64,000 bases of DNA from a virus: positions 124,001 to 188,000 of IMG/VR virus record IMGVR_UViG_3300036766_000359. One strand, written 5' to 3'. Positions 2,183-53,355 of this stretch are shown here, one piece after another. The notes below the pieces were generated by a model, which saw only the letters and a program-made list of their open reading frames with translations, searched no databases and was not told the DNA's origin. Position numbers and translations under genes: made by a program. The first letter of the stretch is position 1, and the number at the start of each line of letters is the position of its first letter.

Positions 2183-2443
2183 TTAGGTTTCCATGACCCG
2201 TCGAATTATTTCAGCGTTGCAATCTCGAAATTGACCACCAAGATATGATGAGAACGTAGTTTCACCACCTCCACCGGAATTTTTCATCGGAGGTGGCGGG
2301 ACTTCGTAATTCGGGTCATCGATTGGATTGTCGGGCCATCCGTTCCATACGATGCAGGCCCCACAGTCGCGACAATTCCAAATATTCCCACGATCACCAC
2401 TAATTGGGTGGCAGCTTGGTGGACGCCAATCATGTTCTTTCAT
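2183..2443 (-). CDS. zinc-ribbon protein with C-terminal RRVMET tag
   Basis: Start MKEHDWRPPS was chosen by analogy with sister proteins that begin MK.H.W. Residues around CRDCGACIVW form one half of a zinc ribbon, and the tail DCNAEIIRRVMET matches the DC...I..VM.S ending of the sister proteins at 17213, 17395, 19196 and 21417. Proline/glycine-rich middle. Function unknown. Confidence 0.65.
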   Translation of the reverse strand: MKEHDWRPPSCHPISGDRGNIWNCRDCGACIVWNGWPDNPIDDPNYEVPPPPMKNSGGGGETTFSSYLGGQFRDCNAEIIRRVMET

Positions 2444-2548
2444 GTGAATTTGACCCGAAAAGGAAAGAAAATTAGGGTAGGTAATTTGACGGGTCCCTTC
2501 CAGATTATACGTATACCAGGGGGTGGATTTTCTGATCAAAAATTTTAC

Positions 2549-2638
2549 TTAAGTTAGCGTCCCACCGAAAGCAAGCGGGAAACGACGCTTGAATAAGCGC
2601 CATATACTTGCCCAGAAGGGTTCATTGTGGTCAGTCAC
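2549..2638 (-). CDS. possible 29-aa peptide
   Basis: A GTG overlaps the end of the upstream gene by 8 nt and opens a 29-residue frame rich in aromatic and basic residues (FWASIWRLFKRRFP). The overlap fits the coupling style of this genome, but the frame is too short for certainty. Confidence 0.3.
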   Translation of the reverse strand: MTDHNEPFWASIWRLFKRRFPLAFGGTLT

Positions 2639-2933
2639 CGAATTTCTCCAGCATGCGCCGCAGCCACGGGTCGCGTGGCCCGACCAACATGGCGTTCTGA
2701 CGTGAGTTGCGATCAGACGTGTCCAGGGCAAACGCCTCGCGTACGGCCAAGTCAGCAGCTTCGACCAAAGCGTACGCAGCATCGGACTCTGCGTTATTCA
2801 CATACGTACTGCCGAACAACAGAGTTTGATACGCCTCGTACACCAGGTCATACTCACCCACAGCCACACGTGTGCATGTCAAGGTCAAAGGATCGGTCAA
2901 CACTACATCTTCAGAAACCACGTTTTCCATCAT
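2631..2933 (-). CDS. hypothetical protein, 100 aa
   Basis: Begins MMENVVSEDVV and is mostly helical (YEAYQTLLFGS, DAAYALVEAADLAVREAF), ending WLRRMLEKFGD. No clear Shine-Dalgarno precedes the ATG. No family recognised. Confidence 0.5.
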   Translation of the reverse strand: MMENVVSEDVVLTDPLTLTCTRVAVGEYDLVYEAYQTLLFGSTYVNNAESDAAYALVEAADLAVREAFALDTSDRNSRQNAMLVGPRDPWLRRMLEKFGD

Positions 2934-3057
2934 ATCAAATTTACACCGTTTGGTTTCAAATTTCCGAAATTTCAAATCGCGTGGTAGGTGTACCTACATC
3001 TACACACCTCGCGGCATTTTACGCGGAAATTGGTTGGTGGTTGATGTATCCTAGGGC

Positions 3058-4062
3058 ATGCGAAAATTGGTAAGTGTTCAGCGAGTGTTGGCATTGCATC
3101 CGATTCCAACTGCCGATGCAATCGAGCTTTGCCAGATCAATGGCTGGCAGTGTGTAGTCAAGAAGGGCGATTTTCAAATCGGTGATATCGGGGTGTACTT
3201 CGAGATCGACGCGGTACCACCGGATCGTCCGATATTTGATTTTCTGTGGAAGGGACAAGCGAAACGTCCAGGGTCACTTTGCATCCGAACGGTTCGTCTC
3301 CGGGGGGCATTGAGCCAAGGGTTGCTAATGCCCTTGGAGCTGTTCCCCGAGGCTGAATGCACCGTAGAGGGTGCAGATCTCACAGAAATCCTTGGGGTTT
3401 ATAAATATGAGCCACCGCCTCCTGATGGTATGGGCGACTACCGGGGACCTTTTCCAACCCTGATAGTCAAGACTGACGAGGTGCGTATTCAGAGTTTCCC
3501 ACAGCTTATCGATGAACTACGGGGTAAGCCTTACGTAAGCACCCTAAAGTGTGATGGTACCTCTGCGACCTTCTGCATGTGGGAAGGAAGCTTCCATGCC
3601 TGCGGGCGAAACCACTCAATCGCGGATGCCGATAACATTTTCTGGCGAGCCGCACGCCGATATATGCTCCCCGAAATCATGGCACGGTATCCGGATCTGG
3701 CTCTACAAGGTGAAGTGGTAGGCCCCGGAATTCAAAAGAACCATATGGGACTCAAGGGAGTGGAATTTCGTTCCTTTAACCTCTATGACATGCGCAAAGG
3801 CAGGAATCTCGACCATGATGAATGCTTTGCGTTTTACGAGAAGCATGAGATTCCAGCTGCTCCCGTCGTTGAAGAAGGGCAATGCTTCCAACACACGGTC
3901 GAGAGCTTACTCCAACTTGCTGAGGGCCCATACCCCGATACCAAGAACGAACGTGAAGGTATCGTGATCCGGCCTCGCATAGGACAGCATAGTCAGACAC
4001 TCGGGGGACGTTTGTCGTTCAAAGCCATTAGCAACCGTTTTTTGCTCAAGAGTGGGGACTGA
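3058..4062 (+). CDS. RNA ligase, DRB0094/Rnl5 type
   Basis: 334 residues. An N-terminal OB-like domain (about 1-110) precedes the nucleotidyltransferase core. Motif I is LKCDGTS with the adenylation Lys at 164. LQGEVVGPG fits motif IIIa, EREGIVIRP motif IV and SFKAIS motif V. The domain order, OB-like first, matches the DRB0094 family of ATP-dependent RNA ligases, which seal 3'-OH/5'-PO4 RNA ends. Phages often use such enzymes to repair host-cleaved tRNA. That role is inferred; the family call rests on visible motifs. First plus-strand gene after the minus-strand cluster. Confidence 0.85.
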   Translation: MRKLVSVQRVLALHPIPTADAIELCQINGWQCVVKKGDFQIGDIGVYFEIDAVPPDRPIFDFLWKGQAKRPGSLCIRTVRLRGALSQGLLMPLELFPEAECTVEGADLTEILGVYKYEPPPPDGMGDYRGPFPTLIVKTDEVRIQSFPQLIDELRGKPYVSTLKCDGTSATFCMWEGSFHACGRNHSIADADNIFWRAARRYMLPEIMARYPDLALQGEVVGPGIQKNHMGLKGVEFRSFNLYDMRKGRNLDHDECFAFYEKHEIPAAPVVEEGQCFQHTVESLLQLAEGPYPDTKNEREGIVIRPRIGQHSQTLGGRLSFKAISNRFLLKSGD

Positions 4063-4176
4063 CTGCAATGGCAAACGGTATTCGAGTATAACGACACCTG
4101 GAACGAAATTCATATTTAGACTCGGGTCCTCCTAAGATCATACGTATGTCAAGGAGGTTTCTCTCCAAAAAAGGTC

Positions 4177-4787: not shown

Positions 4788-4919
4788 ATGCAAACAAACG
4801 AGGCACGCAACCTAGCTAAGAACCCAAACACACCACCAGCTACTTTAGAGTTACTAGCACAATTTGAAGAATGGCATGTACGCTACTTGGTAGGTCTTCT
4901 TGAAGTCATGAAATCCTGA
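4788..4919 (+). CDS. single LRV-repeat protein with EVMKS tail
   Basis: 43 residues. AKNPNTPPATLELLAQ is one unit of the leucine-rich-variant repeat found in the proteins at 22161, 36838, 42686, 43033, 44090 and 45442, and the protein ends LLEVMKS. It may be a minimal or remnant family member. The stop lies at the edge of the GAAGTCCT repeats, and GTGAGGTAGG precedes the ATG. Confidence 0.6.
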   Translation: MQTNEARNLAKNPNTPPATLELLAQFEEWHVRYLVGLLEVMKS

Positions 4920-7357: not shown

Positions 7358-7441
7358 GTACTGCGAACTAGCAGCAAATTCAGCCCACCCAGCCGTATTG
7401 TCGGCGCGAGGTTTCCAATGTGGCACTCATATCAAGTGATA

Positions 7442-7633
7442 ATGACTGATATCGTTGATATCGATCACTACAAGGGTGCGAAACCACCCCCCGGTAGGTA
7501 TCGCGTCATGGGTATCACATATCAGCCACAATCCGCATATGGAGAAGTCCAAATAGCCTCCAATCTCTCGCACGATGAGGCGAGCCGACTCGCTGCAAAT
7601 TTGATAGAGATAGACAGGGTGATGCAGTCATGA
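7442..7633 (+). CDS. small protein with DRVMQS tail
   Basis: 63 residues, MTDIVDIDHYKG. It ends ANLIEIDRVMQS, matching the shared C-terminal tag. The stop overlaps the next ATG (ATGA). The middle (YRVMGITYQPQ) is beta-like. Function unknown. Confidence 0.65.
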   Translation: MTDIVDIDHYKGAKPPPGRYRVMGITYQPQSAYGEVQIASNLSHDEASRLAANLIEIDRVMQS

Positions 7634-11598: not shown

Positions 11599-12411
11599 TC
11601 ATGACTCCATTATCTTCTGCACTTGGGCTACTTTCTGTGATTCTTCGAAGTCTTCGCGGCGCACGAACATGAGAGAGGACTTGTTTCGTTTCAAAAACTT
11701 GACTAGATCATCAAGATCATCAGGATCAATTGACATGCATTCGAGCATGGTATCCGGATTAACGTCGAGCAAGCCTGGCGTTTTAGACAAAAAATCCCGC
11801 AACTTCTCGCGAAATTTTAACGCTTCTTTGTTCGTGTTTATCCCGGAAAACTGACCCACAATCTGATCGGCGTCAAGCAACGATTTTTGCCAAGCTGCCT
11901 TCCATTCTTTGTCGAGATAGTCAAGTCGTTCTGACAACTGCTCATTGAACACACCAGAAATACCTGAGTCGTCTGGGGTTAGACTTGAACTACTAACCCC
12001 ATCAAGCATGTATGAAATACCGTATGATGAGAAAGATAAATAGAGTTGTTGCGGATGTTGCGGATGTGTATGCGTCCATCGGTAGAAAAATTTTTCTCCT
12101 CTCACTTTGAAAAATTTTTCCTCCCAACTGATTTTTCCGTCCAGAACGACGTGTAGACGATTTACTGTGGTGATCAGGTTTTGAGAATAGGGAGAGCAAA
12201 CCTTCAACACACGGGGAGGGCTGATTTTCAGTTTGGAGTTGATAAGAAAGTGCCACGACTGAAGAGTCGCCTGCCTCATTTTCTTAATATACTCTTGCTG
12301 AAGAGCTGCCTGATTGAGCTTTGTTCTGCGATTGTCGGGAGTACACGACTTCTTGAAGGCATCGCTGTCCCGAAGCTTGTCGATTGCGTCTTCGACGAGT
12401 TTATAATCCAT
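11599..12411 (-). CDS. hypothetical protein with VQKIMES tail
   Basis: 270 residues from MDYKLVEDAIDKLR. Mixed fold with an aromatic-rich middle (FYRWTHTHPQHPQQLYLSF) and a helical C-terminal half (EKLRDFLSKTPGLL, DLDDLVKFLKRN). It ends VAQVQKIMES, a clear case of the shared C-terminal tag. Its start lies 3 nt after the upstream stop. No family recognised. Confidence 0.7.
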   Translation of the reverse strand: MDYKLVEDAIDKLRDSDAFKKSCTPDNRRTKLNQAALQQEYIKKMRQATLQSWHFLINSKLKISPPRVLKVCSPYSQNLITTVNRLHVVLDGKISWEEKFFKVRGEKFFYRWTHTHPQHPQQLYLSFSSYGISYMLDGVSSSSLTPDDSGISGVFNEQLSERLDYLDKEWKAAWQKSLLDADQIVGQFSGINTNKEALKFREKLRDFLSKTPGLLDVNPDTMLECMSIDPDDLDDLVKFLKRNKSSLMFVRREDFEESQKVAQVQKIMES

Positions 12412-16835: not shown

Positions 16836-17213
16836 CTAGCTCGACATGATTGAGTCCGCGATTACCATCCCACAGTTCGGGTTTACCTCGTGCTCAGTCA
16901 TGGCCTCATTCCACGTGGATTCTCGGCTCATCTTCATCTGTCGAAAACACTTCTTGCAGATGGCTTCGACTTCGTCGTCCGCAAAGACGAGGGTAGACTT
17001 CAGTTCCCATTCATGGGTTTCATAACCCTCGGTCTTCGGAGAAGTCTCAGAATTCAGGTCGAGCCCTTTCTCCGCCAGCATGCCGTCAAGAATCGACATG
17101 AAGGGGTCTACGTCAACGTTCTCGGCCGCTTTCCCAATGAGGTGAGAAAGCGGGTCTGCTTCCTCTACAGGCTGCACTTCCGAACCGAGCATTTCATCTA
17201 GTTGGTTCTTCAT
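16836..17213 (-). CDS. zinc-ribbon protein with IADSIMSS tail
   Basis: 125 residues. An acidic helical N-terminal half is joined to a zinc-ribbon half (HEWELKST...AICKKCFRQ), and it ends NPNCGMVIADSIMSS. This is the longest member of the HEW/CxxC/tag family. Its ATG overlaps the stop of 17213 (TGATG), the last step of a four-gene coupled operon (17598, 17395, 17213, 16836). Confidence 0.7.
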   Translation of the reverse strand: MKNQLDEMLGSEVQPVEEADPLSHLIGKAAENVDVDPFMSILDGMLAEKGLDLNSETSPKTEGYETHEWELKSTLVFADDEVEAICKKCFRQMKMSRESTWNEAMTEHEVNPNCGMVIADSIMSS

Positions 17214-17398
17214 CACGACTCCATAATTTTCAGGACCATTTGAGCTTGACAATCTGCCAGAATACCGATCTTGCGATAAAAGCTAGCACCGCGTGGTTTC
17301 ATGGGACCATAATAATGGGTTTTACAATTCTTACATATCCACGCTGCAGTCTTCGCCTGGAAATTGAAATAAACGTACTCCCATTCATGATTCTTCAT
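17213..17398 (-). CDS. zinc-ribbon protein with LKIMES tail
   Basis: 61 residues. MKNHEWEYVYF, then ICKNCKTHYYG, then ADCQAQMVLKIMES. ATGA overlap with the upstream gene. One C-x2-C pair is visible, so metal binding would need the DC near the end or a second molecule. Confidence 0.7.
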   Translation of the reverse strand: MKNHEWEYVYFNFQAKTAAWICKNCKTHYYGPMKPRGASFYRKIGILADCQAQMVLKIMES

Positions 17399-17601
17399 GA
17401 TTCCATCACTCCAGCAACCAGCATGGCGTTACAGTCTGCCGCATCTGGTGAAGTTTCAAAGAGGTTAAATGGCACAGCATTTTTGGTTTTATGGTCAAGT
17501 ACGAGACGAATCCCGCAACGCTGACACTGGTATACGTAAGCGTCCCCCTCGTGGTACGGACCGCTAGGTTTTATGTCCGGGAATGAATGCGAGTGTTTCA
17601 C
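17395..17601 (-). CDS. zinc-ribbon protein with AGVMES tail
   Basis: 68 residues from a GTG start that overlaps the upstream TGA. MKHSHSFPD, then CQRCGIRLVLD, then AADCNAMLVAGVMES. Same family and operon as 17213. Confidence 0.7.
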   Translation of the reverse strand: MKHSHSFPDIKPSGPYHEGDAYVYQCQRCGIRLVLDHKTKNAVPFNLFETSPDAADCNAMLVAGVMES

Positions 17602-18137: not shown

Positions 18138-18794
18138 ATGGCACGAAAATCAGACGCAAAGACTTCTAGCTACGACAGAATCTTCGACGCGATCACCCGG
18201 TCTCCTCGGTGGAGGTCGTACATGGAGTCAATCCGTACCGACTTCGAGAAAGTCGGCATACTTGAGTACACCTTTAACCACCACTCAGTATACGAGAATG
18301 CAACAAACACCAACTATGTTGTTGAGGCAAGCTTTCACATCGGACCTGTCTTGGATGTGAAAGTTTCCTTCGACGAAGACTCCGCCCTGTTCGCTGATGC
18401 TGTCAGCGCAAACCAGATTGACTGGTCGATAAATAAGTTCTTTGCCGACGAAAAAAGGATGGACGGGGTCCTCGAGGGTCTCTTCGGTACCAAAGGGTAC
18501 CCGACGTTCAACTGCACACTCGACAACGCCAAGAAGAAGTGGTCTGACTTCGCCAAGAAACGAATCTCTGACGAACTTCATCCACTGAAGGATGCGTTCC
18601 ATTTGCACGTCTCCGAACAGAAGGAAAGCATCATGGCTTCTGAAGGATTCATTAGGGACAAGCAACGCTACTACGACCTTCTCGTCATAAACGACATTCG
18701 GGAAGTGGTCCAGAAGTTCTACAAGAAGGTCAGTCCTGAAGTCATCAAGGAAGCGTTGGACAACGTTATCGTCCACGACATATGTGACTCTTAG
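18138..18794 (+). CDS. hypothetical protein with VHDICDS tail
   Basis: 218 residues. MARKSDAKTSSYDRIFDAI opens an alpha/beta protein with long helices in the second half (RDKQRYYDLLVINDIRE). It ends DNVIVHDICDS, a loose form of the shared tag. Not recognised. Confidence 0.65.
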   Translation: MARKSDAKTSSYDRIFDAITRSPRWRSYMESIRTDFEKVGILEYTFNHHSVYENATNTNYVVEASFHIGPVLDVKVSFDEDSALFADAVSANQIDWSINKFFADEKRMDGVLEGLFGTKGYPTFNCTLDNAKKKWSDFAKKRISDELHPLKDAFHLHVSEQKESIMASEGFIRDKQRYYDLLVINDIREVVQKFYKKVSPEVIKEALDNVIVHDICDS

Positions 18795-19195: not shown

Positions 19196-19396
19196 ATGAC
19201 GTCGCATTCTTGGCGAAAATGGCGTGACGATGGTGATGGGGTCATTATGCTAGACCACATCTGTGATAGATGTGGTATCGTAAAAGGTAATTTTATGTAT
19301 TATAACATGCCCGAATCCAATCCGGTTTCTTTAATATCAGAAGACAGCGAACCCGACTGTGATTTGATGATTGTCAAAAGAATCATGGCCACCTGA
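19196..19396 (+). CDS. zinc-ribbon protein with VKRIMAT tail
   Basis: 66 residues. MTSHSWRKWRDD, then ICDRCGIVKGNFMYY, then PDCDLMIVKRIMAT. Member of the H.W / CxxCG / DC / tag family. Confidence 0.7.
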   Translation: MTSHSWRKWRDDGDGVIMLDHICDRCGIVKGNFMYYNMPESNPVSLISEDSEPDCDLMIVKRIMAT

Positions 19397-19440: not shown

Positions 19441-19502
19441 CGTAAGTCTGCGAGTTGTCGGCGTACGGGTGGGGAGGCAAGCGCGGTGCTTGCCACGGAG
19501 GT
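19441..19502 (+). promoter_or_regulatory. shared leader element with inserted hairpin
   Basis: CGTAAGTCTGCGAGTTGTCG, then GCGTACGGGTGGGGAGGC, then a GGCAAGC/GCTTGCC hairpin and a second GGAGGTGACG. This is the only copy with two GGAGG sites, and the hairpin could control access to the second. Confidence 0.6.
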
Positions 19503-19508
19503 GACGAT

Positions 19509-20615
19509 ATGCTGACCGACGTTTTCGAGATCGAACAGGCAACCTACAAGCGGGTACTCTCGTTCAACATCCGCTCTGGCGGGAACGTGATCATCCTGGG
19601 CCAAGCTGGCACAGGCAAGACGGAGATCGCGCAAGCGGTCTGTGGAGAAGAAGGGTTTGAGTACATCTACTTGAACCTGTCCGTTCTGGAGGCACCTGAC
19701 CTCGTCGGTTTGCCGATCATCGCGGCAAACAACACTGTTGACTACGCCAGCCCGAAGTTCCTTCCTCGGATGGACATCACCCCGAAGCCGATCGTCCTGA
19801 TTGTCGATGAGATCGACAAAGCCAAGCCCGAGCTTCAGAACCCCTTGCTGGAGCTTTTCCAGTTCCATTCCATCAACGGGACCAAGCTCAACATCAAGGC
19901 GATCATCGCCACGGGCAATCTGCCTGACGAGGGGGCGTTCAGCCAGCCCATCTCACACGCCCTCACCAACCGGTGCAAGGTGTACCGCCTGACGCACTCC
20001 TTCGAGGCGTGGCGCGAGTGGGCTCAAAACGACTCGCTCAACGCGCTGGTCATTGGCTTCCTGAGCAAGAACCAGGAGTACCTCAGCCGAGCGGCGGTCG
20101 AGGGAGATCCCACGGCGTACTGTCGCTGCAGCCCGCGCTCTTGGGCAATGGCCGCCAACGACCTGGACAAGACGTCCAGCCAAGACACGGTGGAGTTTCA
20201 GACACTCCTCGTCAGCGGTCGCGTCGGGATGGGCGCTGCGGTGAAATTCCGGGTGTGGCTCGACCACTATCGCCACGTGGAGCCCATCATCGAGAAGCTC
20301 GTCGAGAAGGGCGAGAAGCCTTCCATCAACGACATGTCGATCGATCGACAGCTCGTTTGCGCAATTGCCGCTGTGGCAGCCGTCGCCAACGAATGCAAGA
20401 GGGAGCTGAAAGGCGAGGAGCGCGTGAAGCAGGGCGAGCGCGTGACGAAGATTGCCAAGAACGTCTTCAGTTGGGTGAAGCTCCTCCCATCTGAGTTCCA
20501 GATTGGCGCGGTCAAGTCGGCACTCAACATGAAGATGATCCAGGAATTCAAGCTGACCAACGTTCAGGAAGTGATGGACACCTATCTCACGGTACGTAAG
20601 GCCATGAAGGACTGA
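19509..20615 (+). CDS. MoxR/RavA-type AAA+ ATPase
   Basis: 368 residues. Walker A GQAGTGKTE at 31-39, Walker B IVLIVDEID with D100-E101, a sensor-1 IIATGN, and an Arg after TN that fits the finger. MoxR-type ATPases remodel partner complexes and usually pair with a von Willebrand A protein. The VWA gene at 23055 is the likely partner. A domain of about 150 residues C-terminal to the ATPase carries no motif I recognise. Confidence 0.8.
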   Translation: MLTDVFEIEQATYKRVLSFNIRSGGNVIILGQAGTGKTEIAQAVCGEEGFEYIYLNLSVLEAPDLVGLPIIAANNTVDYASPKFLPRMDITPKPIVLIVDEIDKAKPELQNPLLELFQFHSINGTKLNIKAIIATGNLPDEGAFSQPISHALTNRCKVYRLTHSFEAWREWAQNDSLNALVIGFLSKNQEYLSRAAVEGDPTAYCRCSPRSWAMAANDLDKTSSQDTVEFQTLLVSGRVGMGAAVKFRVWLDHYRHVEPIIEKLVEKGEKPSINDMSIDRQLVCAIAAVAAVANECKRELKGEERVKQGERVTKIAKNVFSWVKLLPSEFQIGAVKSALNMKMIQEFKLTNVQEVMDTYLTVRKAMKD

Positions 20616-20859: not shown

Positions 20860-20913
20860 CTTAAGCTGCCGGAGTGGAGATCGGCGGGTTATCGGCGTAC
20901 TGTGAGTGGACAA

Positions 20914-27321: not shown

Positions 27322-27325
27322 GGCG

Positions 27326-28629: not shown

Positions 28630-28630
28630 C

Positions 28631-33718: not shown

Positions 33719-33750
33719 CCAGCACCAAATAAAAACGAGGCCGGTGCTGG
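33719..33750 (+). terminator. hairpin terminator
   Basis: CCAGCACC pairs with GGTGCTGG right at the end of the preceding gene. Confidence 0.55.
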
Positions 33751-33829
33751 TAAGGTATAGTCCCAGTGTACTTTGGGTAGCATGAAATTCGAGTGGTGGG
33801 TTTTAAACACGTCTAGCTAAGAGGAACCA

Positions 33830-34214: not shown

Positions 34215-34427
34215 ATGAAGACTGCAGCAGGCACGGTCGAGATGTACGAAGAACGCATGCCACACAACGAGTGGCGTGTAGTCAGGGACAGCCTAGGCGA
34301 TCACCATGTGATGTCCCGTCCTCCTACTCCTTATGGATGGCATATACTTTTTACCAATCTTTCACACTTGAAGGCAAGCGAAGAGTGCAAAAAACTTAAC
34401 CTCATCAAAGAAGTTATGGAGTCGTGA
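34215..34427 (+). CDS. small protein with IKEVMES tail
   Basis: 70 residues: NEWRVVRDSLGDHHVMSRPP then ECKKLNLIKEVMES. Third member of the GHHR/DHH family. Its stop overlaps the next GTG. Confidence 0.65.
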   Translation: MKTAAGTVEMYEERMPHNEWRVVRDSLGDHHVMSRPPTPYGWHILFTNLSHLKASEECKKLNLIKEVMES

Positions 34428-34675: not shown

Positions 34676-34687
34676 ACTCGATCGATG

Positions 34688-34710
34688 CGTCCGTACTGGT
34701 GGTGGAGGCA
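34688..34710 (+). promoter_or_regulatory. shared leader element
   Basis: GTCCGTACTGGTGGTGGAGG in front of the short frame at 34714. Confidence 0.6.
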
Positions 34711-34713
34711 AGA

Positions 34714-34761
34714 ATGGACACAAAGTATCAGAAAATCACGAGATTTGCCAATGACGGTTAG
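34714..34761 (+). CDS. 15-aa leader peptide
   Basis: MDTKYQKITRFANDG ends in TAG within the start of the gene at 34751 (ATGACGGTTAG). Same layout as 31198: leader, short peptide, overlapping gene. Confidence 0.4.
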   Translation: MDTKYQKITRFANDG

Positions 34762-35035
34762 GTGCATCGTGGCGGTTAGATATCTCGTATGCCGACATCC
34801 GGATTTCCCAATCTTTCATGACTCCACAGGACCTCAGTTTGAGATGCGTAGTCTATACGACGATGAAGCTTATTCGCAAGAAATCGACCAAATGGGTAAA
34901 TCAGTAACCGTTTTCAAAAGAAACGGTGTCACAGTTGACACTGCTGGCGAATTTTGCGGAGAATATGCTAACGCGAGAGAAGCGCGTGTCGTCATTGATA
35001 GACTTAATCAAGTTTCCAGGGTCATGGACTCATGA
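34751..35035 (+). CDS. hypothetical protein with VSRVMDS tail
   Basis: 94 residues from MTVRCIVAVRYLVCRH. Beta-rich middle, then VIDRLNQVSRVMDS, close to the ends of 33317 and 34215. The next gene overlaps its stop. Confidence 0.6.
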   Translation: MTVRCIVAVRYLVCRHPDFPIFHDSTGPQFEMRSLYDDEAYSQEIDQMGKSVTVFKRNGVTVDTAGEFCGEYANAREARVVIDRLNQVSRVMDS

Positions 35036-35417: not shown

Positions 35418-36116
35418 ATGACCCAGACTCAAACCAAACCATCCGCACTCGACGCTCTCCGTGGACTCTCGAAGAAGGCCGCTCCGCCTTCCGCAGCAAT
35501 CGCCGCCCAGGTCAACGATCCGGCCATCGCCGGGGCCAAGCGCGACAAGAACACGGTCAAGCTCGGGTTCGACCCCAACATTGCCCAGGTAGCGGAACAC
35601 ACCGCTCAGTTGAAGGAAGCTCTCGAACGCGCCGAGGCGGAATTCAAGGTGGATCAGGCCACGATGCGCGACTATGGCATCGGGAAGCGTGGTCTTTACA
35701 ACGACACCTTCAAGTGCGAGGTAACGACCGTCCAGGTCCCGTACACGGTCGATGTTCCTGGTGGAAACGAGACCAGGTACGTTCAGGTGATTTGTTCCAA
35801 CAAGTACTCGGTTCAGAAGGATATCGTCCTTGGAAACAAGGAACTGATCGGACCAGCCTACGAGCGAATGTTCGAGGAACAGACAACCAAGGCTCTCAAG
35901 CCGAACGCCGAGGAGCTTATCCGCAATCTCTTGACCGAGGTTGCAGGTCTCTCGGGTGACGAGCTTGAAAACACGATGAACGAGCTTTTCGACAGCACAA
36001 CGACCGTCAAGGCAACCGACAAGTACGAATCGGAGTTCAAGAAGCTCCCCGACGACGTGAAGGTGGTGCTGGACCAGGCCGTCACACGCGCTCAGCCCGC
36101 GCTCAAGTTCGTGTAA
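35418..36116 (+). CDS. hypothetical protein, 232 aa
   Basis: MTQTQTKPSALDALRGLSKK. Ala-rich start, a long helix (EHTAQLKEALERAEAEFK), a beta section (VTTVQVPYTVDVPGG, YVQVICSNKYSV) and a helical C-terminus. GC-rich codon use like the MoxR and VWA genes, suggesting a conserved core gene. Product unknown. A terminator follows. Confidence 0.65.
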   Translation: MTQTQTKPSALDALRGLSKKAAPPSAAIAAQVNDPAIAGAKRDKNTVKLGFDPNIAQVAEHTAQLKEALERAEAEFKVDQATMRDYGIGKRGLYNDTFKCEVTTVQVPYTVDVPGGNETRYVQVICSNKYSVQKDIVLGNKELIGPAYERMFEEQTTKALKPNAEELIRNLLTEVAGLSGDELENTMNELFDSTTTVKATDKYESEFKKLPDDVKVVLDQAVTRAQPALKFV

Positions 36117-36775: not shown

Positions 36776-36837
36776 ATCAAACATTGACACCGTAAATGGC
36801 CGCGTCGTGTCAGTACGCGCTGGTGGGAGGACAAATC

Positions 36838-37422
36838 GTGGACATGGGTAAAGATATCCGTCATATGCAGCAAATGTGCGATCTTCTGGAATTCCACGCA
36901 CGTGCTGGGCATGTCTCCTCTCGCTATTACGAGAGACATGCCCAGCTGAGCCTGCGACCGCACTCAACGTATGGTAGTCAAAACCGAGGTATCGCGAGAG
37001 ATCCGAACACTCCTATTGACGTCTTGGTCAAGTTATCCACTGACCAGGACCCGAATGTTCGTATCGAAGTAGCAAAATTCGCGTTCTCACGTCCCTGCGG
37101 TAACGAAGCATTCAGTGAGACTCTCGTTAAAACCCTGGTCAATATGTTGTCGATCGACCGAGACCCGTCTGTTCGTTATCATGCAGCCGCAAATCCCTGC
37201 ATACCTGTCGAGACCTTGACCGAGTTATCTGCTTCCAAAGATGCATACGTTCGTCAAGGCGTGGCGATAAACCCGAGCACGCCTGTCGATATCTTGAGCA
37301 CGTTGTCCAACGATAACGACGCATACGTTCGTATTCACGTGTCCGCAAACTCCAAAACTCCTTATGAAGTCTTACTTTATCTAGAGGCACTTGAAGCTAT
37401 ATACGACGTGACGGATAGTTGA
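36838..37422 (+). CDS. LRV-repeat protein with YDVTDS tail
   Basis: 194 residues from a GTG after GGGAGGAC. About six leucine-rich-variant units (DPNTPIDVLVKLSTD, NPSTPVDILSTLSND and similar), ending LEALEAIYDVTDS. The first 30 codons coincide with a diverged copy of the 5573 repeat and a 14-bp hairpin (GCTGGGCATGTCTC). LRV solenoids usually bind protein or nucleic acid; the partner is unknown. Confidence 0.65.
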   Translation: MDMGKDIRHMQQMCDLLEFHARAGHVSSRYYERHAQLSLRPHSTYGSQNRGIARDPNTPIDVLVKLSTDQDPNVRIEVAKFAFSRPCGNEAFSETLVKTLVNMLSIDRDPSVRYHAAANPCIPVETLTELSASKDAYVRQGVAINPSTPVDILSTLSNDNDAYVRIHVSANSKTPYEVLLYLEALEAIYDVTDS

Positions 37423-38623: not shown

Positions 38624-38793
38624 GTCAACTACCCGCTCAACTTGAGCGACTGCTCGAGTTTGAGCGACAAATCAGACGAGCAGTTGATTGTCTTAATCAT
38701 GACATTCAAGAGTCAGATTATCGAGACGAAAGGGACATGGCACGCGTGCGTTTTTCAAACGCAGTTAAAAATGCAGTCACCAAACTCCCATAA
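38620..38793 (+). CDS. 57-aa helical protein
   Basis: GTG start overlapping the previous stop. MSQLPAQLERLLEFERQIRR is a charged, coiled-coil-like helix throughout. It overlaps the next gene by 23 nt. Confidence 0.5.
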   Translation: MSQLPAQLERLLEFERQIRRAVDCLNHDIQESDYRDERDMARVRFSNAVKNAVTKLP

Positions 38794-39040
38794 ATGGACG
38801 TATTCAGTATACCGGGACGTCCTCAGCCCGAGGAACATGCATATGCGTGTTCATTGCCCCCACTGTGAGACTACAGTACTACACGAGTATGCATACGAGT
38901 TGTTACAGACAACTCATGAAAGACACCAGGGGCGCGAAGACATCTTCGCAGAAGTATGCCGAACACTTGAAAGTAAATTTACTTCGGATTGTGAAGAAGC
39001 CCGTTTACTTAATGTGTGTGACCAGATACACAGTTCGTGA
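38771..39040 (+). CDS. tandem zinc-ribbon protein 1
   Basis: 89 residues: HKWTYSVYRDVL, VHCPHCETTVLHEY, then TSDCEEARLLNVCDQIHSS. First of three tandem copies. The last 60 nt are almost identical in all three, consistent with recent duplication or gene conversion. Confidence 0.65.
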   Translation: MQSPNSHKWTYSVYRDVLSPRNMHMRVHCPHCETTVLHEYAYELLQTTHERHQGREDIFAEVCRTLESKFTSDCEEARLLNVCDQIHSS

Positions 39041-39300
39041 CTTCATCCACACATGAATGGGTATACTCGGTGTATCGGGACGTTCTTTCCACGGTATCCA
39101 CGCACATGCGTGTTCATTGTGACAAGTGCGGGACTGTAACACTACATGATCTTGACGAGCAAGTCTATGTCCACACGACGGATGCACACACGAAATATTT
39201 AATCTTCAAAAAAGTATGCCGAACACTTGAAAGTAAATTTACTTCGGATTGTGAAGAAGCCCGTTTACTTAACATCTGTGACCAAATACATAGTTCATGA
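39037..39300 (+). CDS. tandem zinc-ribbon protein 2
   Basis: 87 residues from a GTG overlapping the previous stop: HEWVYSVYRDVLS, VHCDKCGTVTLHD, ending LLNICDQIHSS. Its tail differs from copy 1 by one residue. Confidence 0.65.
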   Translation: MTSSTHEWVYSVYRDVLSTVSTHMRVHCDKCGTVTLHDLDEQVYVHTTDAHTKYLIFKKVCRTLESKFTSDCEEARLLNICDQIHSS

Positions 39301-39548
39301 CTTCATCCACACATGAATGGACGTATTCAACGTATCACGAGCTTTCCAAGAAGTCAGGATTTGTCGACGTCCACTGCGCCAAGTGTGGAACCACGATGCG
39401 ACACCAGTACATTGACGAAGTTTCTGAAATCAATCCTGATTATTTCAAAAACATCTTTGAAGATGTATGTCTTTATCTTGAAAATCAATTTACGGATTGT
39501 GAAGAAGCCCGTTTACTTAACATGTGTGACCAGATACACAGTTCATGA
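39297..39548 (+). CDS. tandem zinc-ribbon protein 3
   Basis: 83 residues: HEWTYSTYHELSKKSG, VHCAKCGTTMRHQ, ending LLNMCDQIHSS. ATGA overlap with copy 2. It ends at a strand switch. Confidence 0.65.
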   Translation: MTSSTHEWTYSTYHELSKKSGFVDVHCAKCGTTMRHQYIDEVSEINPDYFKNIFEDVCLYLENQFTDCEEARLLNMCDQIHSS

Positions 39549-39553
39549 TTAGC

Positions 39554-40210
39554 TCACGAATCCATCACCATATTCACTTCGAACAGGTCCCACGCTTCCT
39601 TGTAAACATCGTCGGGAATGTCGTCACGTTGCAAAATTCCTTCCAAAGCTTTCCTACCATCTCTATGGGTCCAGAAGGTGTTTTCTAGACACCACTCCGC
39701 GCAAGCTTCTTTTGAATTCAGTACATCCATAACCACCGGGGGCGCGAGATTTGGCACTGTGCCGAGCGTTTGCTTATTACGTGCCAGAGTATGGACACTG
39801 AACCAAACGGCATTCTTATAGACTTTATCAAGCCTGAGCTTAACCATCTTTACGAGAACGCTTCGAGGGGTTGGGACTCGGACGAAGTTCCTATTCTTCA
39901 TGGCAATACAGGCTTTGGTGAACTCCGTCGCGTCACTCAACAAGAAATGTCTCTCGCCAACTCTTATTTGCCTTGATGCGAATCCGCTTCCGCTTCCGCT
40001 AGAAGAACTCTGGAACGAGATGATTTGATATCCATAACAGGGAAGGTTATTTTCAACAAGTGACTTTAGATACCCTTCACAAAAAGCCTTCGCTTGGTGA
40101 GTACACACCACTCCCGGAAGACCAGCTATCTCATCAAAAAATTTATTTTTGACGGGGGCCATTTCGTACGCTTCTCCGAAGAGCTTAGAGATGGCTTCGG
40201 AATGACTCAT
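39554..40210 (-). CDS. hypothetical protein with VNMVMDS tail (paralogue of 31235)
   Basis: 218 residues from MSHSEAISKLFGEAYEM. ERHFLLSDATEF, VPTPRSVLVKMVKLRL, IPDDVYKEAWDLFEV match the 31235 protein. A Ser/Gly-rich insert (SSSSGSGSGF) is unique to this copy. Coupled to the SWIM gene by ATGA overlap. Confidence 0.7.
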   Translation of the reverse strand: MSHSEAISKLFGEAYEMAPVKNKFFDEIAGLPGVVCTHQAKAFCEGYLKSLVENNLPCYGYQIISFQSSSSGSGSGFASRQIRVGERHFLLSDATEFTKACIAMKNRNFVRVPTPRSVLVKMVKLRLDKVYKNAVWFSVHTLARNKQTLGTVPNLAPPVVMDVLNSKEACAEWCLENTFWTHRDGRKALEGILQRDDIPDDVYKEAWDLFEVNMVMDS

Positions 40211-40506
40211 ACGGCAACCCTTACGGTTTCTACTGGACCCCCACACGCAGGGCAACAGTCGTAAGACCCATTATCAGATAAATCGGCGTTCCACCCACAG
40301 CGCGTCGGTTTGACGGCCAAAATGTGTTTACACGGCTTTTTGCCGAACCTGAACGCCGAGCACGTGCACGTCCAGTCGTATTGGGTGTCGCTGGAGTGTG
40401 ACCACCCGTAGGAGACCTGATAATCGCCTTTAGACCCGCGAACACTAGCTTCGAAACTCGTGTTCGTCTGGCAAACCGTTCTGTTTTCGACTGTGAGATC
40501 TGGCAT
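40207..40506 (-). CDS. SWIM zinc-finger protein
   Basis: 99 residues. WTCTCSAFRFGKKPCKHILAV is a SWIM finger (C-x-C...C-x-H), and CCPACGG near the end adds a C-x2-C. It resembles the SWIM part of the 31926 ligase as a stand-alone module. Likely binds DNA or a partner protein. Confidence 0.7.
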   Translation of the reverse strand: MPDLTVENRTVCQTNTSFEASVRGSKGDYQVSYGWSHSSDTQYDWTCTCSAFRFGKKPCKHILAVKPTRCGWNADLSDNGSYDCCPACGGPVETVRVAV

Positions 40507-42685: not shown

Positions 42686-43018
42686 ATGGGTTCAAATCGA
42701 CATTTAGCCACGGATCCTAACACCCCTCCTAAAATCCTTGCAAAGTTATCTGGTGACACGGATGTGGTTACTCGTTGGAATGTGGCCTCGAATACCAACA
42801 CATCTCTCGAAATTTTGATCAAGTTAGCTAGTGATACGGATGAATGGGTTCGTCAGAATGTAGCCCGGAACCAAAATACTCCTCTCGAAACTTTGACCCG
42901 GTTGTCTGATTCGGATGTATGGGTTCGTCGGAGTGTATCTCTAAACCCCAGCACTTCTCCCGAAACCCTGAGTCAACTTGACGCACTTGAAGCCGCGTAT
43001 TTGGTGACGAATAGTTAG
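42686..43018 (+). CDS. LRV-repeat protein with LVTNS tail
   Basis: 110 residues, about four units (DPNTPPKILAKLSGD, NTNTSLEILIKLASD, NQNTPLETLTRLSD). It ends LDALEAAYLVTNS. Adjacent to another family member. Confidence 0.65.
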   Translation: MGSNRHLATDPNTPPKILAKLSGDTDVVTRWNVASNTNTSLEILIKLASDTDEWVRQNVARNQNTPLETLTRLSDSDVWVRRSVSLNPSTSPETLSQLDALEAAYLVTNS

Positions 43019-43032
43019 TTGTGAACAATCAG

Positions 43033-43551
43033 ATGTCTAAACTAAGTTTTGCACCAAGTTATACTAATCGTGAAGATTTATCCCGAGATCCTCAAACTTC
43101 TCCAGAAATCCTAACACAGTTATCCGATGACATAAATCCGAGTATTCGCTATTTTGTGGCCGTGAATCCCAACACACCCCCCGAAACTTTGACCAAGTTA
43201 TCCATTGATTCGGATTACATTGTTCGTCGGCGTGTGGCCTCGAACCCTAATACTTCTCCCGAAACCTTAAACCAATTTGCCGATGACACGAATGCGAATG
43301 TTCGTCGGAATGTGGCCTCGAATCCCAACACTCCTTCTGAAATTTTAACCAAGTTATCCAATGATGCGGATTATATTGTTCGTCGGAATGTGGCCTCGAA
43401 TCCCAACACACCCCCCGAAATTTTAACCAAGTTATCCAATGACTCGGATTATATTGTTCGTCGGCGTGTGGCCTCGAATCCCAACACTCCTTCTGAAACC
43501 CTAATTCAACTTGACGCACTTGAAGCCGCATTCATGGTGACTAATAGTTGA
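43033..43551 (+). CDS. LRV-repeat protein with MVTNS tail
   Basis: 172 residues, about six units of 24 residues ([20 protein letters not shown] and similar), several nearly identical in DNA. It ends [17 protein letters not shown] at 43021 is an alternative start. Confidence 0.65.
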   Translation: MSKLSFAPSYTNREDLSRDPQTSPEILTQLSDDINPSIRYFVAVNPNTPPETLTKLSIDSDYIVRRRVASNPNTSPETLNQFADDTNANVRRNVASNPNTPSEILTKLSNDADYIVRRNVASNPNTPPEILTKLSNDSDYIVRRRVASNPNTPSETLIQLDALEAAFMVTNS

Positions 43552-44089: not shown

Positions 44090-44467
44090 ATGTCGCGAAA
44101 AGGTAAAGCCAAGTTAGCTAATGACACGGATCTGACTATTCGTCGGCGTATGGCCGACAGTCCAAGTACATCTTCCAAAATCCTAACCCAGTTAGCTAGT
44201 GACACGGATGAATTGGTTCGTCAGCTTGTGGCCTCGAATTCCAACACACCTTCTGAAACTTTGACCCGGTTGTCTAATGACACAGATAGAGCTGTTCGTC
44301 GGTGTGTAGCCTCGAATCCTAACACTTCTCCTGAAATCTTAACTCAACTTGCTTATGATACAAATAGAAATGTTCGTCGGCATGTATCTCAGAACCCTAA
44401 CACACCCCCCGAAACCTTAGTTAAACTTGATGCACTTGAAGCCGCGTTCATGGTAACGAATAGTTAA
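44090..44467 (+). CDS. LRV-repeat protein with MVTNS tail
   Basis: 125 residues, four to five units ([46 protein letters not shown]). It ends [13 protein letters not shown]. Strong DNA similarity to 43033. Confidence 0.65.
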
Positions 44468-45396: not shown

Positions 45397-45441
45397 ACGG
45401 TGCAACATGCTTCATGGGAGCTGTCGTCAGGGACGTGTCAT

Positions 45442-46011
45442 ATGAGTGTCGATCCGAAAACCCCTGAAGATTACTTTGACGCGGGTGTTCGTGCTCGCTA
45501 TGACATTGCCCATAATCCTCACACATCCCCATCAATTTTGGCTCAATTGTATACTGACGTTAATCCTAATATTCGTTTAGCGGTGTCAGTGAACCCGAGT
45601 ACGCCAATTGATATTTTAGTTAAAATGTCAGTAGGCGAACCCACCATGATTCGTCAGGGTGCAATTGGCGAACCCACCATGATTCGTCAGGGTGTAGCCG
45701 CAAATCCGAGTGCACCTATCAGTCTCTTGACCGAGTTATCAATCGACAAGGACAATATCGTTCGTCAAAGTGTAGCATGGAACCCAAATACTCCTGTCGA
45801 TGTCTTAATCCGATTATCGGACGATGTCGATCAATACGTTCGTCGCGGTGTGGCCAAGAATCCAAATACTCCTGTCGATGTCTTAATCCGGTTATCTGGT
45901 GACGTCAGTCGAGGGGTTCGTCAGGGTTTGGAAAAGAACCCCAATACACCTCCCCAAATCTTGCTTCAGTTAGAAGCGCTCGAAATCGCCTATCAGGTAA
46001 CAGAAAGTTAA
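45442..46011 (+). CDS. LRV-repeat protein with QVTES tail
   Basis: 189 residues, about six units (NPHTSPSILAQLYTD, NPSTPIDILVKMS, NPNTPVDVLIRLSDD). A 33-nt segment encoding GEPTMIRQG is duplicated inside it. It ends LEALEIAYQVTES. A GTG at 45400 could extend it. Confidence 0.65.
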   Translation: MSVDPKTPEDYFDAGVRARYDIAHNPHTSPSILAQLYTDVNPNIRLAVSVNPSTPIDILVKMSVGEPTMIRQGAIGEPTMIRQGVAANPSAPISLLTELSIDKDNIVRQSVAWNPNTPVDVLIRLSDDVDQYVRRGVAKNPNTPVDVLIRLSGDVSRGVRQGLEKNPNTPPQILLQLEALEIAYQVTES

Positions 46012-48647: not shown

Positions 48648-48909
48648 GATCACAGCAGAAGATTTTATCGACAAGCATTCCTCAGAGTATCCAAAGCTGA
48701 GTGATTTTCGCAATGTGGTTCTCATAGGCTGCGAAATCAATCCCAACAATGACCCGCCCGGGATCTGTGTTTTTCAAGTCCCCGATCCAACACGTGGTGG
48801 TGCAGATGCAGTTGTTGTTGTTCACGAGGGTGGTGTGTGGATTCGTGGTCTAGATGACCTCATTAACAAAAGAGTGGCTGAGGCTGTGAGCGCCTTTACT
48901 AAGGGTTGA
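48625..48909 (+). CDS. hypothetical protein, 94 aa
   Basis: MSKLRHIRITAEDFIDKHSS, alpha/beta (VVLIGCEINP, AVVVVHEGGVWIRG), ending in a helix. Not recognised. Confidence 0.6.
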   Translation: MSKLRHIRITAEDFIDKHSSEYPKLSDFRNVVLIGCEINPNNDPPGICVFQVPDPTRGGADAVVVVHEGGVWIRGLDDLINKRVAEAVSAFTKG

Positions 48910-48929
48910 TTTCTACTGTAGGTTTTAGC

Positions 48930-49910
48930 ATGCTACCACTTGAAAAACTCAAAGCCGTCAAGATCATTATTAGCCATGCGAACTGTGCTGATGGCACTGC
49001 AGCAGCGATGTTCCTTCACGATGTTCTTCCGGATGCGAAAATTCAGTTTTTGCAATATGGGACTGAAGCATATCAAAATTTGCAGGCAGAACCGTGTATG
49101 TTATTCTGCGACATTTCACCACATCCAGACACATACCATCAGTTTGTTAACGCGGGCGCTCTCATCCTAGACCACCACAAGGGCTCCCAGGGTATCGTAG
49201 AGGCCTTCGGAGAACTCGGAGTGTTCGGGGACGAGGTGAAAGACCCTGGAGTATGTGGAGCCTTCTTGGCCTACCGGGAAGCCTGGTTTAAGCTCAAGAG
49301 TACGGATGGTTTACCCGGTCCGTCAGGCGTGGAGGCTGGGATTGGTGGTAAGATAGCCCGTCTGGCTGGAATCCGGGATACCTGGCAACGACAGGACTCC
49401 ATGTGGGATGAAGCATGTGTTTTGGCGGAAGCCATGCGCTTTTACCCAGCCGAGTCATGGTTGATTGATGATCCTTTCGCACCGAAGAACCAAACTTGGT
49501 GGGAAGAAAGAATGACCGTTGGTCGCGTGTTGATTAAACGTAACGATGCGGCTGTCAAAAAAGCAGTTGAAGGCGGATATCGTTTCACAACTCCTCGAGG
49601 AACTCGTTGCGTAATATTTTCAGGAATCAGGTTATCGAGTGATGCCGCCGAGTTCTTGGGTAGTGATGCTGACCTGGTTGTCGGGTTTGATTATGTAGGA
49701 ATTGAACAGGGTCAAGCCGTTCTCGTTTTTTCAACTCGTTCCCATATAGATTTCAACTGCATGGAATTTTGTAAGGCTCATGGGGGAGGTGGTCATACAA
49801 AAGCTGCTGGTTTTTCAGTTCGATTTGACCCGAAAACGCATGATCTAAGTCCATATGCGGTATTCGAGATTTTACTCGGAAAATACGAGTCAGGGACGGC
49901 GGGATGTTAA
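48930..49910 (+). CDS. DHH-family phosphoesterase
   Basis: 326 residues. SHANCADGTAAA is a variant of the first DHH-family motif, FCDISP the second, ILDHHKG the DHH motif, and GGGGHTKAAGF the DHHA1 glycine-rich substrate loop. DHH/DHHA1 enzymes (NrnA type) remove nucleotides from short RNAs or cleave cyclic dinucleotides and pAp. It could degrade nano-RNA or a host signalling nucleotide; the substrate cannot be told. A TTG at 48906 would add 8 residues. Confidence 0.8.
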   Translation: MLPLEKLKAVKIIISHANCADGTAAAMFLHDVLPDAKIQFLQYGTEAYQNLQAEPCMLFCDISPHPDTYHQFVNAGALILDHHKGSQGIVEAFGELGVFGDEVKDPGVCGAFLAYREAWFKLKSTDGLPGPSGVEAGIGGKIARLAGIRDTWQRQDSMWDEACVLAEAMRFYPAESWLIDDPFAPKNQTWWEERMTVGRVLIKRNDAAVKKAVEGGYRFTTPRGTRCVIFSGIRLSSDAAEFLGSDADLVVGFDYVGIEQGQAVLVFSTRSHIDFNCMEFCKAHGGGGHTKAAGFSVRFDPKTHDLSPYAVFEILLGKYESGTAGC

Positions 49911-51459: not shown

Positions 51460-51472
51460 TGATTGGGACCAA

Positions 51473-51793: not shown

Positions 51794-51814
51794 ACCCGTT
51801 GAGGACGTAGTGCC

Positions 51815-52195
51815 ATGAAGTCAACTAAAAGCCTTGCCAACGCTGAGTCGGAAACGCCCGTTCATCCCCCGGCAATCAATATATGCGCCAACTGCGGTGA
51901 TATTAAATCAGAACACGATTTTTTCACTAGTATTGAGGGTATATGTATGGGCGGTAATACAACGTTCCTGAGTTTAGCTGAACATGAGAAAACCATGACC
52001 ACCTTCCGCCTTCCACACGACCATCGAGTCCCCGATGCAAGCGCACTGGCAGACGCCGCTGAAGCGCTGGGAAATGTGCGCTCAGAGGACGGCGCACCTA
52101 TCGTGATGACATGGGCAGAAGTGCTTGAAGCAATCCGCGAACTTCGCGCTGATTACAATCACCTCGTAGAAGAATTAGCCGGGGAATCAATATGA
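51815..52195 (+). CDS. hypothetical protein, 126 aa
   Basis: ESETPVHPPAINICANCGD near the start is repeated in part (SESETPVHPLP) at the start of the next gene. One CANCG knuckle, then a helical C-terminus (EVLEAIRELRADYNHLVEEL). Confidence 0.6.
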   Translation: MKSTKSLANAESETPVHPPAINICANCGDIKSEHDFFTSIEGICMGGNTTFLSLAEHEKTMTTFRLPHDHRVPDASALADAAEALGNVRSEDGAPIVMTWAEVLEAIRELRADYNHLVEELAGESI

Positions 52196-52626
52196 GTGAA
52201 TCTGAAACACCCGTGCATCCGCTGCCGACCGACTTCTCGCTGCACTACTCGTACATCGTGAACCAACTCACCGGCACGTTGCACAAGGCTGAGTTGGAGT
52301 TTGCCGCCGCGCTGATCATTAGGTGGCACAAGCTACACAGCAGCGAGACTTGGATCGGATTCTCCCGTGATGACATCGCTACGCTGTTCAATCCGGCCAG
52401 CCCAGACCCAGGGGTGCTGGAGTACCAAGGCAACCCATTCTGGAAGCCCGACCCGATGGGCTTGGTCGAGAAGGGTTTCGTGGACGGCTGGGACTACGGG
52501 CCAGAGAACGCTCACATGATCGGGCGATTCACCGATAAGTTCTTTGAAGCTGTAGCAAAAGAGTGGACACGACGCAGCCCGAGCTGGAGCACGTTAGGTC
52601 GCGCAAAGAACAAAGTGGTCACATGA
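52192..52626 (+). CDS. hypothetical protein, 144 aa
   Basis: MSESETPVHPLPTDFSLHYS, then helices and a Trp/Pro-rich part (NPFWKPDPMGLVEKGF). ATGA overlap with the upstream gene. Not recognised. Confidence 0.6.
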   Translation: MSESETPVHPLPTDFSLHYSYIVNQLTGTLHKAELEFAAALIIRWHKLHSSETWIGFSRDDIATLFNPASPDPGVLEYQGNPFWKPDPMGLVEKGFVDGWDYGPENAHMIGRFTDKFFEAVAKEWTRRSPSWSTLGRAKNKVVT

Positions 52627-52871
52627 TGCAAATGATTCGAGATCCGCTGCTTACTTGGTTGCGATCTAAACGGAACGTTTGGCATGCCGGTAGGTGTGCG
52701 AAAAACAGGCACGCTTGGCAGTGGGGCCTAGTACCCGCGTCTGGAATCAAAAGTGACGCGCTCATACGGATGGATTGGCTTCGCGGTTTTGACGGTCGGA
52801 TTACTCCCGTGGCGATCTACTCGCGTTGTAAGCATTGCCAGTGTCTAGGAAAGATGCCCAATGATTTGTAG
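52623..52871 (+). CDS. HAW-type zinc protein without tag
   Basis: 82 residues: RHAWQWGLVPASG and SRCKHCQCLG resemble the H.W / CxxC family, but it ends KMPNDL without the tag. Overlaps both neighbours. Confidence 0.55.
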   Translation: MMQMIRDPLLTWLRSKRNVWHAGRCAKNRHAWQWGLVPASGIKSDALIRMDWLRGFDGRITPVAIYSRCKHCQCLGKMPNDL

Positions 52872-53085
52872 GAATCACGAGTGGGTACGTTCATCTCGTC
52901 CTTCCCGTACGATACTCACCGCGAAAGCAGGACTCCTGATATGGCGTTGGACTTGCCACGAATGTGGTTCTAAGCTTGAGAAATCTGACACTCATTCCGT
53001 TTACCCGGTTGCTCAGGACTGTATCGAACACGACGTTTTGATCAACTGTTCAGAACAAATAATTCGCATAGTAACGGATTGCTGA
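52861..53085 (+). CDS. zinc-ribbon protein with IRIVTDC end
   Basis: 74 residues: NHEWVRSSRPSR, WTCHECGSKLEKS, then QDCIEHDVLINCSEQIIRIV, ending TDC. The ending is a diverged tag (VTDC for VMES). Confidence 0.6.
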   Translation: MICRNHEWVRSSRPSRTILTAKAGLLIWRWTCHECGSKLEKSDTHSVYPVAQDCIEHDVLINCSEQIIRIVTDC

Positions 53086-53115
53086 AACAATCTTCGGCGT
53101 ACTTTATGATTTGGT

Positions 53116-53355
53116 ATGAATATGCCGAACCAAGAAGAGTGGAAGAAACATCTGAAAGTCTTAAAGACCAAGAGGAATCTTCATACTCGTCAGAATAGAC
53201 TCATAAAACTCGTTCATCGCGGACGTGATAGGTTTCGTCAAAACAAGAAAGCTCAGTTGGAGTTACGTCGTGTGGTTTCTCTATGTTTTCGACTTGGGGA
53301 AAAACTTCATAATGAACTACAAGAAGAATTTGTCGAAGGGGTGATGGAGTCATGA
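53116..53355 (+). CDS. small basic helical protein with VEGVMES tail
   Basis: 79 residues, Lys/Arg-rich helix (KVLKTKRNLHTRQNRLIKLV), ending EEFVEGVMES. The fourth Met-Pro start (MPNQ) is an alternative. Confidence 0.65.
   Translation: MNMPNQEEWKKHLKVLKTKRNLHTRQNRLIKLVHRGRDRFRQNKKAQLELRRVVSLCFRLGEKLHNELQEEFVEGVMES

Follow-up and report, generated by a model that had tools for sequence, protein, structure and literature searches.

The DNA stretch analysed here, called the window throughout, spans 64,000 nucleotides (bases 124001-188000) of the 192,972-base virus record IMGVR_UViG_3300036766_000359. Many of its small genes encode proteins that differ in their bodies and share one short C-terminal peptide, referred to as the tag, which in its strict form reads [VI]-M-x-[STA]. 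A sequence-only reading had listed 23 genes with such endings. All 23 end exactly as listed, on both strands, with some of the listed starts falling within longer frames, and the looser endings VTNS, VTDS, VTES, IHSS, IHES, THES and TMES are found on plausible genes as well. The tagged genes and the untagged genes of a candidate tag-reading machine are the following (window positions; G002 and G004 are related phages).

2183-2539, minus: zinc-ribbon protein, tagged, ends RRVMET
4788-4919, plus: LRV-type protein, tagged, ends LEVMKS
7418-7633, plus: tagged protein, ends DRVMQS
11599-12009, minus: tagged protein, ends QKIMES; tagged homologues in G002 and G004
16836-17213, minus: zinc-ribbon protein, tagged, ends DSIMSS
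17213-17398, minus: zinc-ribbon protein, tagged, ends LKIMES
17395-17601, minus: zinc-ribbon protein, tagged, ends AGVMES
18138-18794, plus: protein with diverged tag, VHDICDS; homologues near the MoxR gene have HEIMES, HAIMEN and HEIMKD
19196-19396, plus: zinc-ribbon protein, tagged, ends KRIMAT
19455-20615, plus: MoxR-type AAA+ ATPase (AAA_5), untagged; candidate tag reader
20902-21420, plus: tagged protein, ends QKIMES
21417-21605, plus: zinc-ribbon protein, looser tag RVIHES
21595-21939, plus: looser-tag protein, FQTHES
22203-22400, plus: LRV protein, tagged, ends YDVMES
22444-22836, plus: tagged protein, ends FEIMNA
23055-24521, plus: DUF2201 protein with HExxH zinc-peptidase and VWA domains and intact metal-ion-dependent adhesion site (MIDAS), untagged; MoxR partner
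24934-25251, plus: tagged protein, ends NDVMDS
25310-25714, plus: tagged protein, ends SDVMLS
27284-27550, plus: tagged protein, ends REVMES
27679-28449, plus: tagged protein, ends HQVMTS; tagged homologues in G002 and G004
28446-28595, plus: tagged protein, looser SQTMES
28607-29254, plus: tagged protein, ends SSVMNS
31235-31837, plus: tagged protein, ends REIMES; paralogue of 39554-40255
33108-33278, plus: looser-tag protein, ADVTRS
33317-33514, plus: tagged protein, ends SNVMGS
33515-33718, plus: tagged protein, ends EEIMKS
34215-34427, plus: tagged protein, ends KEVMES
34685-35035, plus: tagged protein, ends SRVMDS
36796-37422, plus: LRV solenoid, looser tag YDVTDS
38642-39040, plus: zinc-ribbon protein, tagged, ends DQIHSS
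39037-39300, plus: zinc-ribbon protein, tagged, ends DQIHSS
39297-39548, plus: zinc-ribbon protein, tagged, ends DQIHSS
39554-40255, minus: tagged protein, ends NMVMDS; paralogue of 31235-31837
42686-43018, plus: LRV solenoid, tagged, ends YLVTNS
43021-43551, plus: LRV solenoid, tagged, ends FMVTNS
44090-44467, plus: LRV solenoid, tagged, ends FMVTNS
45400-46011, plus: LRV solenoid, tagged, ends YQVTES
53116-53355, plus: tagged protein, ends EGVMES

Of 1250 stop-to-stop frames in the window with a minimum length of 30 amino acids (aa), 24 end in [VI]M.[STA], against 0.6 +/- 0.66 (maximum 2) in 20 second-order Markov shuffles. An equal frequency in shuffled sequences, which the sequence-only reading had named as a refutation, is not observed. 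With the upstream hydrophobic spacing (L..V..VM.S type), 13 frame ends are found in the window and none in the shuffles. One of these 24 frames (33705-33812, minus strand) is antisense to the 3' end of a tagged gene and probably spurious. With the last 14 residues removed, the carriers sort into LRV solenoids, zinc ribbons, the paralogous pair 31235/39554 and many unrelated singletons, and thus descent from one gene family does not explain the endings in the window. Within the tag, V, I, E and S are encoded by varying codons, and selection on the peptide at the protein level is strongly supported.

The phage behind the window (193 kb) is related to Bacillus phage G and is a member of a group of large phages from soil and water without a close isolate. 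Its major capsid protein (297 aa, PHROG major head protein) is at least 90% conserved among the closer relatives; identity is 78% to G017, 76% to the uncultured 485-kb phage LR745208, 45% to Tunturiibacter phage Tunturi_5 and 36% to phage G. A comparison of the window with known phages gave no match at the DNA level, and a host search with the capsid protein against genomes returned no relatives. The regions of the record that flank the window hold replication, nucleotide metabolism and structural genes. Several relatives, among them G002 (393 kb), G004 (436 kb) and G015 (427 kb), were read mostly or wholly, in pieces, while G016, G020, G022 and G013 were read in part only. Genes were called with a simple caller of our own, and the counts given below are therefore approximate.

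The search for the tag in related phages, which the sequence-only reading had proposed, found it there on more proteins than in the window; for the phage group as a whole, the original count is too low. The consensus shared by the relatives is V-x-x-[VI]-M-[ED]-S-COOH, and tagged proteins make up 109 of 587 called proteins in G015, 94 of 561 in G004, 57 of 495 in G002, 30 of 268 in G012 and 29 of 234 in G000. In a binomial test that takes a pattern's internal frequency as the background, the strongest terminal patterns reach log10 p values of about -111 (G004), -99 (G015), -36 (G002), -14 (G012) and -13 (G000). Over the 439,107 residues of these five genomes, V/I..V/I-M-E/D-S/T occurs 138 times terminally and 4 times internally. 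The DNA pattern RTNATGGANTCNTRR has 78 matches in G004, 27 in G002, 49 in G015, 13 in G012 and 12 in G000; its reversed control has none in these five and a single one over all 26 records. Clustered by sequence, the 381 tagged proteins give 335 clusters, of which 308 have a single member. All synonymous codons are used at the tag positions, and a DNA-level element is rejected for this reason. The over-use of TCA ahead of TGA in tag genes arises because TCATGA overlaps the start of the next gene. Chance, descent and a DNA element are excluded as origins of the tag.

Other lineages carry other tags. In G005, 17-19 proteins end in [LV]V-D-x-V-H-D-L (VVDxVHDL type). The VMxS tag is absent from G017, where about 37 proteins end in LWDHL plus up to about 6 residues, placed behind flexible linkers rich in Pro, Lys and Glu; the corresponding DNA pattern has 36 matches in G017 and at most one in any other record. 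A weaker tag, [ST]RF[EDN]R (TRFER), was found in G018 (11 vs 0.7). Among the phages with VM tags, G012 also has VMDG and VMDE endings, and G013, G016 and G033 show IMEN, VHES, VHNS, IMKD and IQDD endings near the AAA+ locus. Orthologues may differ in their tag from phage to phage (IMES, IMEN, IMKD or ICDS) or lack it altogether, as does a RuvC-like protein that is tagged in G004 and not in G002. Similarly, the DHH phosphoesterase relative at window 48906-49910 (PHROG 4771) has a G005 orthologue with a VHAL tag and others without one. Across lineages the tag drifts, and its replacements are concerted. This is most simply explained by a single reader in each lineage and by new genes that acquire the tag repeatedly.

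The carriers are small orphans with fast turnover, located mainly in accessory regions. Leaving aside the window's phage, the 140 longest carriers include only a handful with a hit in Pfam, PHROG or NCBIfam, these being DHH phosphoesterase, RuvC-like resolvase, capsid-like fragment, tail-fibre/collagen-like and DnaJ zinc matches. The sequence-only reading's statement that no recognised enzyme is tagged holds for the window but fails in the relatives, where the resolvase and the phosphoesterase carry the tag. CxxC zinc motifs are enriched among the carriers of G002, G004, G005 and G017. Integral membrane proteins are predicted among the carriers at about the background rate (6 of 109 in G015, two clear cases in G017). 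In the clearest of them basic residues follow the membrane segment, which suggests a cytoplasmic C terminus; tagged membrane proteins thus speak for a role of the tag in the cytoplasm. The tag is absent from the structural and replicative core genes conserved between the phages.

Taken together, we consider it very probable that the tag serves as a docking peptide and has a single reader in each lineage. In the window's phage, this short linear motif would close the protein with the amphipathic form V/I-x-x-[VI]-[MH]-[ED]-S-COOH. A single receptor per lineage would read it, and new accessory proteins would converge on the local tag while relatives use others.

As to the receptor, the best-supported candidate, which we put forward tentatively, is an AAA+ remodelling/proteolysis machine made by the phage. 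In phages with the VM tag it would consist of the MoxR ATPase and its HExxH-metallopeptidase/VWA partner, and the tag's acidic residue or terminal carboxylate could be held at the MIDAS metal site of that partner; in the LWDHL and TRFER phages it would be the phage's ClpX. Both the HExxH motif and the VWA MIDAS motif are intact in the DUF2201 protein at 23055-24521. ATPase and partner co-occur, close together, in G000, G002, G004, G015, G012, G016, G013 and G033, i.e., the pair is complete in all eight VM-tag phages where either member was found. Tag density within 20 kb of the pair is raised 1.7 to 3.1-fold in the five mapped genomes, and the neighbours of the pair are tagged in the other three phages (G013, G016, G033). 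ClpX with its zinc finger and a retained IGF-type loop is encoded by G017 and G018, and ClpX with a zinc-binding domain was not found in G000, G002, G004, G015 and G012. In Tunturi_5 and LR745208 both machines are absent, and no ending is enriched in the sampled parts. The co-occurrence of tag and machine holds in most tagged phages.

The carriers might then act mainly as adaptors: a variable N-terminal module would grip a target from the host or a competitor, and the tag would deliver it for unfolding or cleavage. Alternatively, within the same mechanism, the carriers would be substrates removed on schedule. Receptor, adaptor role and targets are the parts of this mechanism that we infer. In its complete form, with dozens to more than 100 plug-in adaptors whose tag sends captured host or competitor targets to a phage AAA+ protease (MoxR/VWA-metallopeptidase or ClpX), and with any small binding protein made active once it gains the tag of its lineage, we regard it as unlikely.

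Several observations weigh against such a machine as the reader. G005 is tagged, yet MoxR, DUF2201, ClpX and ClpP were not found in its record, which may be incomplete. A few VM tags and no MoxR matches were found in G003, G009 and G014, which are short or of uncertain completeness. N4 and Ab09, of which the early/middle half was read, encode the MoxR/VWA-peptidase pair and have no shared C-terminal tag. Phage G encodes both machines and shows no tag in its sampled parts. G024 has ClpX, and the half or so of its genome that was read holds no tag. In G017 the ClpX gene lies outside the tag cluster. The machines, too, sit in accessory regions, so their closeness to the tags may be incidental, and the association of tag and machine is confounded by shared ancestry and this common location. 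As a separate observation on N4, its gp24 is a MoxR ATPase followed by gp25 with HExxH and VWA (DTSGS) motifs (L294 9938-12306); judged by these motifs, the RefSeq name HNH endonuclease for gp25 looks wrong.

The case of G005, tagged with neither MoxR nor ClpX, lends itself to a localisation signal for another hub, such as a replication/transcription compartment, the sliding clamp, a core AAA protein of about 500 aa or a host protein. That core AAA protein is present in G005 also, lineage-specific tags would suit a receptor that changes with the host, and LWDHL bears a loose resemblance to clamp-binding peptides. However, the conserved core genes are untagged, and co-occurrence yields as candidates only the MoxR/VWA pair and a 232-aa protein. 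We hold another hub to be a serious but somewhat unlikely explanation. The 232-aa protein (window 35418-36116) is untagged and was found only in five VM-tag contigs; we tried it as the hub and set it aside, as its structure model is poor (predicted local distance difference test score, pLDDT, 57).

Among the functions offered by the sequence-only reading, the MoxR/VWA-metallopeptidase pair or ClpX encoded alongside the tags speaks for a possible protease-linked role. A plain degron, by which early carriers would be destroyed at a set time by host or phage proteases, could draw on these AAA+ protease-like machines and on the role of C-terminal peptides as classical recognition signals. Nevertheless, it would be odd to make a tenth to a fifth of all genes, solenoids and membrane proteins included, just for destruction; the MES and VHDL ends do not resemble the LAA of ssrA, and LWDHL stands behind flexible linkers in the style of a docking peptide. 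We hold a degron to be quite unlikely. A search for host sigma-70 promoters that would class the tag genes as early gave no signal.

Head packaging, also among the earlier proposals, fares still worse. Variable orphans with one short peptide do resemble the T4 internal proteins (PMC9026906), which would make the tag a capsid-targeting signal and the carriers head-loaded proteins that are injected, and three carriers are fragmentary relatives of the major capsid protein. But integral membrane proteins are tagged in G015 and G017, and because membrane proteins cannot ordinarily be head cargo, encapsidation is unlikely as a general role. Moreover, the conserved proteins encoded in the head gene cluster all end without the tag, and a distinct N-terminal motif marks the proteins beside the capsid gene. 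On balance, capsid targeting is improbable. Finally, an artefact through chance, single-family descent or a DNA element such as a start site of the next gene has a negligible probability, the TCA excess from the start overlap being opposed by the shuffles, the terminal and internal counts, the 335 clusters, the full codon use and the reversed-pattern control.

Each of the three capsid-related carriers (G002 54190-54867, G002 94901-95200, G015 238541-238918) is related to a different part of that protein (residues 233-297, 10-69 and 186-264); they are possibly decoys or capsid-interfering proteins. The N-terminal motif, M-[DN]-[LF]-x-x-I-A-x-R-[VI]-A, occurs on many proteins without the C-terminal tag in G015, G002, G005, G000 and G004. 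In G015 a run of six genes right after the capsid gene (306302-308591) carries it, also in the form M-x-x-x-x-I-A-x-R-[VI]-A, and it is possibly a better candidate for a head signal than the tag. Mimicry of a scaffold protein was considered and rejected: a conserved capsid-adjacent gene of the VM phages ends in the LWDHL-like LWDRP, while its G017 relative ends in VFGTR.

Further features of the window lie among or beside the tagged genes. A single-BRCT protein (26338-26694) and an ATP-dependent DNA ligase-like protein (31926-33107), the latter with a G004 homologue that has a SWIM-like zinc motif, are conserved untagged neighbours in the tag region; both names are our reading of the sequences. 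The BRCT protein has an internal VxxVMEVS and was tried as the receptor, but the segment aligns with the lead-in of a core BRCT paralogue and is taken as coincidence. A simple repeat at 190-501 encodes an LR/LA dipeptide run on both strands. An adenylosuccinate lyase (PurB-like, 55173-56510) adjoins a 460-aa protein of unknown function and could be linked to modified purine synthesis, and a TnpB/Cas12f-like nuclease (Cas12f1-like TNB domain) is located at 60274-61842.

If the tag is a docking peptide, one signal would link 10-20% of the genes, nearly all without an assigned function, in some of the largest phages, and a set of orphan genes would become one system with a testable receptor. The tag would serve as a sequence handle for accessory and host-takeover proteins in uncultured phages, and it suggests a possible use for the MoxR/VWA-peptidase pair, which N4 carries as well, with no known role. 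The tag appears to be new, as the literature searched on shared phage C-terminal peptides held no matching report within the limits of that collection.

Among known systems, the ssrA degron, which ends in LAA, is likewise a C-terminal peptide of a kind an AAA+ protease could read. The tag differs in being genome-encoded and in its sequence (MES, MDS and HDL ends), with an acidic penultimate residue and a terminal Ser. The MoxR and metallopeptidase-vWA pair was described by Iyer et al. (2021) in jumbo phages and proposed to act in virion assembly or processing (PMC7824862). The same type of gene pair is present at window 19455-20615 and 23055-24521; the parts of that work available to us do not mention a C-terminal tag, and N4-like phages have the pair without it. 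Among phages, the closest parallel to a short signal shared by variable proteins is the capsid-targeting sequence of T4 IPI, IPII and IPIII (PMC9026906). Here, too, a short peptide is common to variable, fast-evolving accessory proteins with divergent bodies, but the T4 signal is N-terminal, cleaved and confined to few proteins, whereas the tag occupies the extreme C terminus of 20 to more than 100 proteins, including membrane proteins.

In terms of mechanism, the nearest system is the C-terminal ClpX-binding region (XB/XBR) of SspB with its LKxh-type consensus (PMC7226468). The tags resemble it as short C-terminal peptides, which in the LWDHL phage stand behind a flexible linker, as the SspB peptide does, and a zinc-finger ClpX is co-encoded in G017 and G018. 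VxxVMES, VHDL, LWDHL and TRFER are unlike LKxh, however, and SspB is one host adaptor as opposed to dozens of phage proteins, with MoxR/VWA rather than ClpX in the VM-tag phages. The linkers, moreover, are clear in the LWDHL proteins of G017, whereas the VM tag looks like a helix end: in a low-confidence structure model of one carrier, the terminal helix includes it. Plug-in adaptors of this kind would follow a logic of targeted degradation comparable to that of E3 ligases, and the tags may yield new docking peptides for targeted degradation or sorting.

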